This document shows positions 2,489 to 7,053 of a DNA stretch of 7,053 nt, one piece after another. Origin of the DNA: an uncultured Selenomonadales bacterium (GTDB lineage: Bacteria > Bacillota_C > Negativicutes > Selenomonadales > Selenomonadaceae). The position numbers were made by a program, and so were the translations under genes. Within the stretch, counting starts at the first letter, position 1, and the number at the start of each line of letters is the position of its first letter. The stretch covers positions 1 to 7,053 of the forward strand of contig CALGGX010000293.1 in assembly GCA_937916025.1 (NCBI GenBank). The letters run 5' to 3'. Below the pieces are notes generated by a model. The model did not search any database. It was not told the DNA's origin and was given only the letters and a program-made list of their open reading frames with translations.

Positions 2489-2713
2489 TTAGCCGATGAG
2501 TTCGTCGATTTTTGCTTTGTCAAAACCGACTACGTAATTTTTGCCGTCCGTAATGACGGGAACCATCGTATCGCCCGAGAGTTTTTCGCATGCGCGCGCA
2601 TCTTCCTCGCTCTCTTCGATGTTCCGCACTTCGTATTCGACGCCCTTTTGATTGAGATACCGCTTCGCCTTGTCACACCACGGGCATTGCGTGATTGAGT
2701 AAACCGTCAACAT
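2489..2713 (-). CDS. Small glutaredoxin-like thiol-disulfide protein (CPWC)
   Basis: A 74-residue thioredoxin-fold redox protein, likely cytoplasmic. It starts MLTVYSITQCPWCDKAKRYL, with the active-site pair Cys10-Pro-Trp-Cys13, then the cis-proline region TMVPVI, and ends VGFDKAKIDELIG, the usual finish of small glutaredoxin/NrdH/YruB-like proteins. The frame is open further upstream for 21 codons, but I chose the ATG at 2713 because AAGGAG lies just ahead of it and the fold begins exactly there. It follows trxB by 13 nt and is surely cotranscribed. The natural reading is that the thioredoxin reductase recharges it in place of glutathione reductase, as known for NrdH-type redoxins. The real partner (ribonucleotide reductase or other disulfide substrate) is not shown by the sequence. 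The family assignment is firm, the subfamily less so. Confidence 0.92.
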   Translation of the reverse strand: MLTVYSITQCPWCDKAKRYLNQKGVEYEVRNIEESEEDARACEKLSGDTMVPVITDGKNYVVGFDKAKIDELIG

Positions 2714-2726
2714 AAAAATCTCTCCT

Positions 2727-3662
2727 TCAATTCCAATTTGTGCTTCGGATGTATTTTTCTGCCTGCAACGCGGCAACCGTGCCGTCAGCCGCCGCCGTCG
2801 TCAACTGCCGAAATTCCTTCTCGCGAATGTCGCCCGCCGCAAAGACGCCGCTCAAATTCGTCTTGCAATCTTCGCCCGCCAATATAAAGCCGCGTTCGTT
2901 GAGTTTGACCTGCTCGCGAAACAGCTCGTTGTTGGGCTCGACGCCGACATTGACAAACAAGCCGTCGACTTTCAGCAATTGCGCCGCTTCCGTCTGCCGA
3001 TCGATCAATTCCAATTGCCGAAGTCGAGAGTCTCCGAGCAATTTCGCAATCCGAGTTTGCAACATCACTTCAATTTTCGGATTGTCAAACAGTTTTTGCT
3101 GACTGACCTCGTCCGCGCGGAGCTCCGAGCGATGGATCAAAAACACTTTTTCGGCGTACTTCGTCAAAAAGAGTGCCGCGTCAACTGCCGAATTTCCGCC
3201 GCCCGCCACCGCGATCTGCTTGCCGCGATACATGTGCCCGTCGCACACTTCGCAATAATGCACGCCGCGATTTGCAAAGCGATTTTCTTCCGCCAAGCCG
3301 AGTTTCCGACGCCGTTGCCCCGTGGCAAGAATTACCGCCTTTGCTTCGTAAATGTAATTCGCCGTTTCGACGAGCTTCATCTTGCCTTCGAGCTCGACGC
3401 GTTCGATCTCGTCAAACTCGTCGACTTCCGCGCCGAATGACATTGCCTGCTCCATGGCAGTTTTTTCGAGCGCGTTACCGCCGATCTCTTTGATGCCGGG
3501 ATAATTTACGATATGAGCCGCCGAGGCGATCTGCCCGCCGACCAAACCGTTTTCGAGAATGAGCGTCGACAATTCCAGACGCGCGGCGTAAAGTCCCGCC
3601 GTCAAGCCCGCATGCCCCGCGCCGATTATCACCGCATCTTTCGATCTGATCTGCTTATCCAT
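2727..3662 (-). CDS. trxB: Thioredoxin reductase-type FAD/NAD(P)H disulfide oxidoreductase
   Basis: A 311-residue flavoenzyme of the low-molecular-weight thioredoxin reductase family, which passes electrons from a nicotinamide cofactor through FAD to a redox-active disulfide and then to thioredoxin or a glutaredoxin-like partner. Visible parts are the FAD-binding GAGHAG (14-19) and LVGGQIASAAHIVNYPG (40-56). The redox pair Cys137-Glu-Val-Cys140-Asp follows, then the nucleotide-binding GGGNSAVDAALF (154-165), and the C-terminal FAD motif GVFAAGDIREKEFRQLTTA (272-290). The usual HRRxxxRA motif that holds the NADPH 2'-phosphate is shortened to HRSELRA (177-183), so cofactor preference may differ. 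The frame is open 28 codons further upstream, but the start is fixed by GAGGAGGT just ahead of MDKQIRSKDAVIIGAG. It is the first gene of the minus-strand run, 13 nt before the small redoxin gene, and has its own consensus promoter. Family assignment is secure; the physiological disulfide partner is inferred from the neighbour. Confidence 0.95.
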   Translation of the reverse strand: MDKQIRSKDAVIIGAGHAGLTAGLYAARLELSTLILENGLVGGQIASAAHIVNYPGIKEIGGNALEKTAMEQAMSFGAEVDEFDEIERVELEGKMKLVETANYIYEAKAVILATGQRRRKLGLAEENRFANRGVHYCEVCDGHMYRGKQIAVAGGGNSAVDAALFLTKYAEKVFLIHRSELRADEVSQQKLFDNPKIEVMLQTRIAKLLGDSRLRQLELIDRQTEAAQLLKVDGLFVNVGVEPNNELFREQVKLNERGFILAGEDCKTNLSGVFAAGDIREKEFRQLTTAAADGTVAALQAEKYIRSTNWN

Positions 3663-3684
3663 ATTAAACCTCCTCGTTTGATTG

Positions 3685-3713
3685 ATTATACATTGCCGCA
3701 TGTCGTTTGACAA
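3685..3713 (-). promoter_or_regulatory. Promoter of trxB and the leftward gene run
   Basis: On the minus strand there is a -35 box TTGTCA (3713-3708), a 17-nt spacer and a perfect -10 box TATAAT (3690-3685). Transcription would start near 3678, which leaves a leader of only about 15 nt containing the GAGGAGG ribosome binding site of trxB. The match to the housekeeping sigma consensus is close to ideal. It probably drives trxB, the small redoxin, folK/folA, ung and the chemoreceptor. Confidence 0.85.
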
Positions 3714-3729
3714 CAGGAAATAAAAATGC

Positions 3730-3758
3730 TTGACTTTTGCCGTCAATGCTGATATAAA
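3730..3758 (+). promoter_or_regulatory. Promoter of the flavodoxin gene
   Basis: The -35 box TTGACT (3730-3735) is followed by a 17-nt spacer and the -10 box TATAAA (3753-3758), with TG one base upstream of the -10 (extended -10). Transcription would start near 3765, about 27 nt before the start codon. The promoter sits back to back with the trxB promoter, the two -35 boxes being 16 bp apart. A short inverted repeat, TTGAC-N7-GTCAA (3730-3746), covers the -35 box and could be an operator, but this is weak. Confidence 0.83.
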
Positions 3759-3791
3759 ACTGCCGTTGATTGTATCAAGGAGGTTAATGAT

Positions 3792-4223
3792 ATGAGCAAA
3801 GTTGCAGTCGTTTATTGGAGCGGCACGGGCAATACCGAGTCGATGGCAAATGCGATCGTCGAAGGCGTGAAAGCCGCCGGTGCCGATGTCGATCTCTTCA
3901 TCGTAGACGACTTCAAGGCGGAAGATATCGCCGCATACAACGGAGTAATCTTCGGTTGCCCCGCGATGGGCGACGAGGTTCTCGAAGAAGATTCCTTCGA
4001 GCCGTTCTTCGCCGAAGCGGAGAAGAAACTCGACGGCGTGCCGGTTGCCCTGTTCGGCTCTTACGGTTGGGGCGGCGGCAAGTGGATGGAAGATTGGGTC
4101 GAGCGCACGAAAGATGCCGGCGCGAAACTTTTCGGCGACGGTTTGATTTGCGAAAACGGACCGGATGACGGCGTTCTCGAAGAGTGCAAATCACTCGGCA
4201 AGGATTTTGCAAGCTCGCTCTGA
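3792..4223 (+). CDS. Flavodoxin (short-chain, FMN)
   Basis: A 143-residue soluble FMN electron carrier that can replace ferredoxin. The FMN phosphate loop SGTGNTESMAN is at residues 10-20, in the N-terminal strand-loop-helix KVAVVYWSGTGNTE. The first isoalloxazine loop is CPAMGDEVLEE, and the second is GSYGWGGGKWMEDW with its stacking aromatic residue. The protein closely resembles the Megasphaera elsdenii and clostridial flavodoxins as I remember them, including YWSGTGNTE, GCPAMG, EPFF and LFGSYGWG, and has the same short-chain length. The start is set by AAGGAGG at 3777-3783, 8 nt upstream. It has its own extended -10 promoter and its own terminator, so it is most likely a single-gene unit that responds to iron or redox state; that regulation is inferred from the family, not shown. 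Neighbouring redox genes fit. Confidence 0.97.
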   Translation: MSKVAVVYWSGTGNTESMANAIVEGVKAAGADVDLFIVDDFKAEDIAAYNGVIFGCPAMGDEVLEEDSFEPFFAEAEKKLDGVPVALFGSYGWGGGKWMEDWVERTKDAGAKLFGDGLICENGPDDGVLEECKSLGKDFASSL

Positions 4224-5558: not shown

Positions 5559-5586
5559 TCCTGTCAGACGGCAGGATTTTTTTTTT
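5559..5586 (+). terminator. Intrinsic terminator between the exported-protein gene and the rubrerythrin fusion gene
   Basis: The stem TCCTGTC (5559-5565) pairs with GGCAGGA (5570-5576) over a 4-nt loop, with one G-U pair, followed by ten Ts (5577-5586). It starts 12 nt after the exported-protein stop and ends 22 nt before the Shine-Dalgarno of the next gene. A second small hairpin, GCAACG-N8-CGTTGC (5587-5606), follows at once. Confidence 0.88.
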
Positions 5587-5623
5587 GCAACGCGAAATGA
5601 CGTTGCAGAAGGAGGGTTTTGAT

Positions 5624-6790
5624 ATGTTGACAAAAATCAGCTACGGCTTGTATGTGCTCAGCGTAAGCGGCGAGCATGACAACGCGTGCATCACAAACAC
5701 GTTGACGCAAATCACCGATAATCCGGTGCTGTTGACGGTTGCCGTTAACAAAAAGAATTACACCAATGAAATTCTGACAAAAACCGGCAATTTCACGGCA
5801 TCGATCCTCAGCGAGGCGGCATCGTTCGATCTGTTCAAACGTTTCGGATTTCAAAGCGGCAGGACGGTCGATAAATTTGCGGGCTTCAGCGCAGTCAAGC
5901 GCACGAAGAACGGCACGTTTGCAATCACCGAAGGCACGACCGGCTACATCAGCGGCAAAGTTCGGCAGATCATTGACGCAGAAACGCATTCGATCTTCAT
6001 TGCGGATGTCGTCGATATGGAGCAACTTTCCGAAGTCGGTCCGGCGACGTATGCTTACTATCACGCGCACATCAAACCGAAACCGCAAGCCGTCGGCAAA
6101 ACTCAAGCAGGCAAGACGATTTGGCGTTGCACGATTTGCGGCTTCGAGTACGTCGGAGATGAATTGCCGCCCGCGTATTTCTGTCCGATCTGCAAACATT
6201 CGGCGGCGAGTTTCGTAAAAGTCGAGGCGACTGCGGCGGACGAAAAACCTTCCAAGGTCGAGTTCAAAGGCAGCAAGACCGAGAAGAATTTGTGGGAAGC
6301 ATTTGCCGGTGAAAGTCAAGCGCGCAATAAATACACTTACTATGCGTCGGTTGCAAAGAAGAGCGGCTTCGAGCAGATTGCGGAACTGTTTTTGAAGACA
6401 GCGGATAATGAAAAAGAACATGCAAAACTGTGGTTCAAGGCATTGGGCGAACTCGGTGATCTGCCGACAAATCTCCTGCATGCGGCGGAAGGCGAGCATG
6501 AAGAGTGGACTGAAATGTATCCGCGAATGGCGGCGGAAGCGGACGAGGAAGGCTTCCATGAGCTCGCGGAGCAGTTCCGCGGCGTGGCGGCAATCGAGAA
6601 GCGGCATGAGGAGCGCTATCGGAAATTGCTGAAGTCGGTTGAGGCAAAGGCGTTTTTCGAGAAGGCGGGCGTTTCGACTTGGGAGTGCCGCAATTGCGGA
6701 CATATTTATATCGGAAAGAGCGCGCCGAAACTCTGCCCGGTCTGCAAACATCCGCAGGCGTATTTCGAGCTCACAGCGCAGAATTATTGA
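5624..6790 (+). CDS. Four-module redox fusion: flavin reductase (Hrb-type) - rubredoxin - rubrerythrin - rubredoxin
   Basis: A 388-residue cytoplasmic protein that appears to carry a whole electron path to a diiron site. Residues 1 to about 152 form an FMN-binding split-barrel flavin reductase domain like that of high-molecular-weight rubredoxin (Hrb) of Moorella: [39 protein letters not shown]. Residues 165-200 form a rubredoxin with Cys169, 172, 187 and 190. Residues 218-340 form the rubrerythrin four-helix domain with all seven expected diiron ligands: Glu230, Glu263, His266, Glu291, Glu294, Glu325, His328. Residues 352-384 form a second rubredoxin, Cys355, 358, 371 and 374. Expected activity is NAD(P)H-dependent reduction of hydrogen peroxide; O2 or NO reduction is possible because Hrb serves a flavodiiron NO reductase. 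The start is set by AAGGAGGG (5609-5616), 7 nt upstream, and by the Hrb-like N-terminus. The frame is also open back to an ATG at 5543. No clear promoter lies between the preceding terminator and the gene. Confidence 0.95.
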
Positions 6791-6804
6791 CAAGCCGCAA
6801 GGCA

Positions 6805-6816
6805 AATGATATCATT
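6805..6816. repeat. Perfect 12-bp palindrome AATGATATCATT ahead of the riboswitch
   Basis: AATGATATCATT is fully self-complementary. It lies 15 nt after the rubrerythrin-fusion stop and about 40 nt before the riboswitch, in the stretch where the promoter of the riboswitch transcript should lie. It has no T run, so it is not an intrinsic terminator. It could be a repressor operator, but AT-rich 12-bp palindromes also occur by chance. Confidence 0.35.
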
Positions 6817-6853
6817 AATGAAAACTATGATTTGACAATTGAATATTGATTGG

Positions 6854-7046
6854 ATCAGGTGTCGTAAGACTTAATAAGGAAGTCCGGTACGGGGGATACC
6901 CTAAGGCCGGCGCGGTCCCGCCACTGTATCAGGGAGTGAATCTGCAACGGAATCTAATATCTTCGTGATTCCGGTATTATGTCACTGGGGGTAACCTTGG
7001 GAAGGCGCAGAGGAACGATAAACTGAAGCCAGGAGAATTGCCTGAT
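6854..7046 (+). ncRNA. Cobalamin (B12) riboswitch aptamer
   Basis: The conserved core is easy to recognise: the P2-P3 region GGTGTCGTAAGACTTAATAA (6858-6877), then GGAAGTCCGG, GCGGTCCCGCCACTGTA with its invariant CCCGCCACTG, the later GTCACTGG (6981-6988), GGGAAGGCGC, and the B12 box AGCCAGGAGAATTGCC (7027-7042; usual form AGCCAGGAGACCTGCC). The closing stem P1 is ATCAGG (6854-6859) with CCTGAT (7041-7046). A side arm CGGAATC/GATTCCG lies between the core and GTCACTGG. It points rightwards, so it should control a gene beyond the right edge, most often B12 synthesis, cobalt or corrinoid uptake, or a B12-independent isoenzyme. The expression platform is not in the window. The loop after CCGG is longer than usual. 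Confidence 0.95.
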
Positions 7047-7053
7047 TGACAAT

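Follow-up and report, generated by a model that had tools for sequence, protein, structure and literature searches.

A flavin reductase–rubredoxin–rubrerythrin–rubredoxin fusion protein predicted to be self-sufficient in the NAD(P)H-dependent reduction of hydrogen peroxide

Introduction

Can a single polypeptide carry electrons from NAD(P)H to the diiron site of a rubrerythrin? The question is raised by a gene on a 7,053-nucleotide stretch of DNA (the window; contig CALGGX010000293.1 of assembly GCA_937916025.1) from an uncultured Selenomonadales bacterium. Positions 5624..6790 of its forward strand encode a protein of 388 amino acids, followed by a stop codon, in which a flavin reductase domain, a rubredoxin, a rubrerythrin diiron domain and a second rubredoxin follow one another in that order. 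We estimate a probability of roughly three in four that this protein works as a self-sufficient NAD(P)H-dependent H2O2 reductase, in which an Hrb-type NAD(P)H:rubredoxin reductase is coupled to a classical rubrerythrin. We regard the prediction as well supported because of the anatomy of the protein, its conservation, the adjacent or clustered genes for Hrb-like proteins and rubrerythrins, and an analogous enzyme driven by H2. Its observed basis is the domain order, the complete and conserved ligands, the predicted domain folds and the unfused counterparts in shared gene clusters. The fusion is real, conserved and widespread, with a function that can be predicted and a mechanism that is not strange.

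Domain architecture

A Shine–Dalgarno sequence, AGGAGGG, is read directly at 5610..5616 of the forward strand, ahead of the ATG start at 5624. The Pfam matches to Flavin_Reduct, RUBY_RBDX and Rubrerythrin all lie above the cut-off. Residues 4–150 (5633..6073) match Flavin_Reduct (E 4.9e-27) and have a predicted split-barrel flavin reductase fold. The first rubredoxin spans residues 166–198 (6119..6217; bounds set by eye) with Cys169, 172, 187 and 190 in the spacing CxxC-x14-CxxC. It is followed by a linker (residues 203–211; 6230..6256) with a pLDDT below 50 in the predicted structure. The four-helix diiron domain (residues 221–336; 6284..6631) matches Rubrerythrin (E 3.2e-24) and holds seven ligands, while the second rubredoxin (residues 353–382; 6680..6769) has Cys355, 358, 371 and 374 in the spacing CxxC-x12-CxxC. 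RUBY_RBDX matches two stretches of the protein, and residues 213–388 score 256.8 bits against the rubrerythrin equivalog NF045767 of NCBIfam (cut-off 200). A Flavin_Reduct domain followed by a rubredoxin places the protein with the Hrb type, which also has stand-alone members consisting of these two domains only, and the equivalog score, the seven diiron ligands and the C-terminal Fe(Cys)4 motif place it with the classical rubrerythrins. Judged by these matches, the first half is Hrb-like and the second half is a classical rubrerythrin. The preliminary description of this DNA proved right in each detail of the sequence that was checked. It had already given the domain order, which is borne out by Pfam, the full set of seven diiron ligands, which is borne out by alignment to the Desulfovibrio vulgaris rubrerythrin and by an alignment of 142 fusions, and both rubredoxin spacings, which are found at Cys169–Cys190 and Cys355–Cys374.

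In a structure search, the fold of the flavin reductase domain matched flavin reductases, some with flavin mononucleotide (FMN) or flavin adenine dinucleotide (FAD) bound, and the nearest solved structure was the Archaeoglobus fulgidus ferric reductase 1i0r; most rows of that search were taken up by this domain, and folds outside the list may also match. The second half is also matched by PF00210 (Ferritin). These two matches, together with a ferritin gene in a Fusobacterium naviforme cluster described below, are what favours an iron-handling enzyme, in which a ferric reductase half and a ferroxidase, ferritin-like half would move iron instead of scavenging peroxide. We consider this very improbable, since the two complete rubredoxins conserved throughout are electron carriers needless for iron storage and the second half scores above the rubrerythrin equivalog cut-off. 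For the NAD(P)H peroxidase that we favour, the same two halves would be electron donor and catalyst.

Conservation of ligands and rubredoxins

At least 7,998 proteins passed the homologue search, and fusion status was counted among the 120 listed; on a recheck by phmmer, all 120 have the flavin reductase half together with the rubrerythrin half. The window protein and these homologues (together P0001–P0121) were aligned with 21 fusion loci to give the 142 fusions compared here. The seven diiron ligands, placed by alignment to the ligand residues of the D. vulgaris rubrerythrin, are E230, E263, H266, E291, E294, E325 and H328. E230 and E263 are kept in 141 of the 142 fusions, the other five ligands in all 142, and none of the eight rubredoxin cysteines is missing from more than one, a level of conservation in the alignment that is far from chance.

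At least two rubredoxin motifs are present in 118 of the 120 listed homologues, always with x14 in the first and x12 in the last, and ten have three. The remaining two (P0003 and P0115) have a single motif each; one ends early and the other has an altered second rubredoxin. One fusion locus (L003) is an exception in having x12 spacing in its first rubredoxin. The two rubredoxins differ consistently in the residue preceding the second cysteine, which is Ile or Val in the first (142/142) and Asn in the second (141/142), and a His follows the last cysteine in both (142/142 and 139/142, respectively). An Asn and a His near the cysteine pairs have been held responsible for the high potential of the rubredoxins in rubrerythrins (PMC6033852). 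Because that Asn is present in the second rubredoxin alone, though both have the His, we infer that the first is probably at a lower potential than the second.

Variants of the architecture were also seen. An extra rubredoxin after the flavin reductase, making three in total, occurs in L022 (4986–6281), P0107 and P0021. A second, partial rubrerythrin domain stands in tandem in P0012 (by sequence) and P0052 (by Pfam), for which assembly errors could be the explanation. By eye, no internal in-frame start for a free rubrerythrin was seen near 6200–6270 of the window; 13 of the 120 listed homologues have a Met no more than 14 residues ahead of the diiron domain.

Distribution

In a collection with one genome per species, 80 loci were kept of at least 587 confirmed relatives. 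They comprise 21 single-gene fusions, two fusions interrupted by a stop, two adjacent gene pairs and 55 loci without a flavin reductase in the same gene. The 21 fusion loci span at least five phyla, many of them from rumen or gut samples, and their carriers include Selenomonadaceae, Lachnospiraceae, Oscillospiraceae, Clostridia, Bacteroidales (including Muribaculaceae and Prevotellaceae), planctomycetes, Lentisphaeria and Treponema; most are metagenome bins, and single taxon placements may be wrong. Among 32 plasmid records with a match, coverage of the query reaches 80% or more in one, a protein of Roseburia sp. 831b that is 57% identical and annotated as rubrerythrin. The architecture is thus widespread and common in gut microbes. 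The sense of rarity in the preliminary description did not survive the domain-architecture search, and rarity was rejected on the counts of 120/120 listed homologues and 21/80 kept loci. Where database names are given for the fusion homologues, they are rubrerythrin or flavin reductase only.

The two interrupted genes (L010 at codon 259, L019 at codon 260) each have one in-frame stop (TAA and TAG, respectively) inside the rubrerythrin domain of an otherwise complete fusion, and may be pseudogenes or sequence errors.

Fused and unfused forms

Two loci (L014 and L018) have an Hrb-like gene followed directly by a separate rubrerythrin gene (rbr) with its own ribosome site. In F. naviforme (L079), genes for a protein with the order rubredoxin–rubrerythrin–rubredoxin (Rd-Rbr-Rd), a ferritin, a desulfoferrodoxin and an Hrb-like protein lie in a row on one strand. 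When the N-terminal half was used as the query, five of 120 listed rows had a rubrerythrin motif and 115 had no diiron motif, counts that give no ratio of the two forms, as a length limit shut out full-length fusions.

That stand-alone Hrb-like proteins are so numerous in that search, and that one adjoins desulfoferrodoxin in F. naviforme, would suit a general electron hub, in which the flavin reductase and first rubredoxin serve separate acceptors (a flavodiiron protein or a superoxide reductase) and the rubrerythrin is one client. The rubrerythrin is, however, held in a fixed order and at short range, with 22–31 residues between the last cysteine of the first rubredoxin and the start of the diiron domain in the 81 rows measured, and we find a general hub improbable beside a dedicated NAD(P)H peroxidase.

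Trees were built on the flavin-reductase-plus-rubredoxin part only. For a first, quick tree 264 rows were thinned to 137, and L003 was left out with its first rubredoxin off motif; fused and unfused forms are intermixed, and supported branches force at least ten changes between them. A second, careful tree used 90 of these 137 rows, dropping partial fusions, the long-branch fused loci L020, L022, L023 and L024, and unfused rows, picked by eye, whose contigs were shorter than about 5 kb. Supported branches of this tree force at least eight changes, with long branches still flagged for P0107, P0108, L015, L016 and L025. A single fusion event was rejected (test of one fusion clade on the careful tree, p-AU 0.0013), in a test that cannot separate fusion, splitting and horizontal transfer and with unfused rows that could include broken genes.

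Genomic context and substrate

The plasmid-borne fusion gene of Roseburia sp. 831b, a pig-associated anaerobe (L081; plasmid of 242,774 bp), lies in an oxidative-stress cluster that comprises bcp, yaaA, a Fur-family repressor, the fusion, lactate dehydrogenase, desulfoferrodoxin and rubredoxin, with hemerythrin farther along. The repressor gene overlaps the fusion gene by eight bases. A desulfoferrodoxin gene is also near a rubrerythrin gene in nine of the 80 kept loci (L030, L033, L036, L044, L045, L047, L056, L069 and L079), none of which holds a flavin reductase–rubrerythrin fusion.

The same enzyme might instead serve mainly to oxidise NAD(P)H for the removal of O2 or NO, with the diiron site reducing O2 to water and not H2O2. 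The rubrerythrins of Clostridium difficile and Clostridium acetobutylicum are described as reducing O2 in vitro with activities 2 to 7 fold below those on peroxide, and the Hrb of Moorella thermoacetica as the partner of a flavodiiron NO reductase (both PMC12288474). The fusion, in contrast, has a classical rubrerythrin half with E294 in 142/142 aligned fusions, and the hallmarks of flavodiiron proteins (a metallo-beta-lactamase diiron domain and a flavodoxin domain) are absent among its Pfam matches, so that an NO or O2 reductase is the less likely function. E294 is the equivalent of E97, a ligand that distinguishes the rubrerythrin peroxidases from ferritins and is tied to peroxide chemistry. 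For the Moorella pairing there is reportedly also a 2003 paper by Silaghi-Dumitrescu, which by its title joins Hrb with the flavodiiron NO reductase. Desulfoferrodoxin, a producer of H2O2, again argues against the oxidase, being near the Roseburia fusion as well as near the nine unfused rubrerythrins. Altogether we judge a main role in O2 or NO removal to be unlikely. The preliminary description had proposed an NAD(P)H peroxidase or an NO/O2 reductase; the first stands, as a prediction, on anatomy, conservation, gene pairs and clusters, and HydR, the hydrogenase-linked enzyme discussed below, whereas the second has lost ground.

Predicted mechanism

We propose that NAD(P)H would reduce FMN by hydride transfer and that single electrons would then pass from FMN to the first rubredoxin. 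This rubredoxin, on its flexible tether, may hand electrons to the second, which would feed a diiron site that, by the example of known rubrerythrin dimers, is probably in the partner subunit, and the diferrous site would reduce H2O2 to water. We expect these cofactors, this route, this substrate and a dimer from the families to which the domains belong.

Several observations weigh against this proposal. For the electron route, the pTM of the predicted structure is 0.50 and the placement of the domains is accordingly uncertain. Among 26 loci (L001–L025 and L079) no neighbour family occurs in more than five, and the ten neighbours scanned had no redox role in common. With the Roseburia proteins as queries, no PerR, desulfoferrodoxin, rubredoxin, YaaA or Bcp neighbours were found in L001–L025, several of which have little flanking DNA; the sole match to that cluster was a hemerythrin by L004. 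There being no conserved neighbourhood, the Roseburia locus alone gives the fused form genomic support. PF00301 rubredoxins are matched in six of the nine fusion-bearing genomes searched, in five of the six as a short frame of its own, and an outside electron donor is therefore possible. Apart from this, the classical reductase family PF18267, which is not a clean marker, was matched in one of the nine fusion-bearing genomes and two of 12 overall, genomes whose completeness is not given; these counts carry no weight for or against a loss of that reductase in fusion carriers.

If the predicted NAD(P)H peroxidase activity is true, many gut and rumen anaerobes own it in one protein, peroxide can be removed without a dedicated rubredoxin reductase, and the fusion offers a single-chain system for the study of electron delivery to a rubrerythrin diiron site.

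Other features of the window

No promoter with the sigma-70 pattern was found just upstream of the fusion gene. A terminator-like hairpin lies upstream at 5559–5576; the three such sites found compare with 2.8 in shuffles and are not above chance. Downstream, a cobalamin riboswitch (RF00174, 67.1 bits) occupies 6840–7053 of the forward strand, is served by a near-consensus promoter-like sequence at 6787–6815, and most likely controls the next gene, beyond the window. More redox genes lie near the fusion. Within 2489–4223, a pyridine nucleotide-disulphide oxidoreductase with a CEVC motif, which we take to be thioredoxin-reductase-like, and a glutaredoxin-like gene are on the minus strand, divergent from a flavodoxin gene. 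A minus-strand reading frame at 1481–2476 contains both HPPK and DHFR domains and overlaps the frame of a uracil-DNA glycosylase (888–1565) by 85 bases.

Comparison with known systems

No study of a flavin reductase–rubrerythrin fusion was recognised in a search of open-licence papers, subscription papers lying outside it, which agrees with the earlier remark that a characterised protein with this very layout is not known. The word 'flavin' is absent from the rubrerythrin domain survey PMC5114695. A 'Rubrerythrin fusion protein' is reported in the proteome of Brachyspira hyodysenteriae, its domains unstated and flavin reductase unmentioned in the pertinent portion of PMC4955376. The exact layout thus seems to be unstudied.

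Each part of the protein has a familiar counterpart. Classical rubrerythrins (C. difficile 9fj2, D. vulgaris 1b71) have a diiron domain and a C-terminal short rubredoxin, as does the second half of the fusion, but are described as relying on a separate reductase and rubredoxin for their electrons (PMC12288474). The Moorella Hrb, an FMN-containing, NADPH-dependent enzyme with a rubredoxin domain according to the same source, resembles the first half by description, not by sequence; it differs in being a separate protein with a flavodiiron partner and no rubrerythrin attached. The A. fulgidus ferric reductase 1i0r shares the fold and 31–34% identity with the flavin reductase domain, but is a 169-residue chain without rubredoxin or diiron domain. 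Class F flavodiiron proteins (C. difficile CD1623, Trichomonas vaginalis FDPF) are likewise described as self-sufficient fusions of a diiron catalyst, a short rubredoxin and an NADH module (PMC6033852, PMC9364112); in contrast to the fusion, they have a metallo-beta-lactamase diiron core with flavodoxin and an NADH:rubredoxin-oxidoreductase-type domain, and reduce O2.

The strongest analogy is with HydR, the [FeFe]-hydrogenase–rubrerythrin of Clostridium perfringens, which is the closest characterised analogue of the fusion. HydR has been shown to couple H2 oxidation to H2O2 reduction and is modelled as a homodimer; two rubredoxin centres and the diiron site of a rubrerythrin are fused in one chain behind its electron-donor module (PMC11926857). 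Two rubredoxins and a rubrerythrin diiron domain are likewise present in the fusion, from whose Pfam matches the [FeFe]-hydrogenase domain PF02906 is absent; HydR takes its electrons from H2 via the hydrogenase, unlike the NAD(P)H and FMN predicted here. The Rd-Rbr-Rd order of the HydR type is taken from the HydR-like genes of L035 and L071, not from that paper.

HydR-type genes occur in a Lachnospiraceae member (L035, 3618–5657; assigned by Pfam), in Fournierella (L071, 3537–5669; read as sequence) and in a Clostridiales member (L064, 1040–3076; by length and cysteine pattern only), the last two with a Fur-family gene upstream. A further variant has a 4Fe-4S ferredoxin-like module and about 100–150 residues without a Pfam match before Rd-Rbr-Rd, in L027 and L038 by Pfam, in L026, L031 and L046 by eye, and in L033, L036, L042 and L045 by cysteine pattern and length.

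Since HydR-like genes are found among the loci, the same core takes different donors. The point of greater interest is this use of different electron-donor modules on one Rd-Rbr-Rd core; with HydR, the fusion would belong to a modular family in which the electron source alone is exchanged. We give about even odds to a joint reading in which Rd-Rbr-Rd is a general peroxidase cartridge with varied inputs, its two rubredoxins act as a stepped wire in which the first is tuned low and the second high, and the flavin version derives from an hrb–rbr gene pair through many fusions and splits. Besides NAD(P)H via an Hrb-like flavin reductase and H2 via an [FeFe]-hydrogenase, the ferredoxin-like 4Fe-4S module would be such an input.
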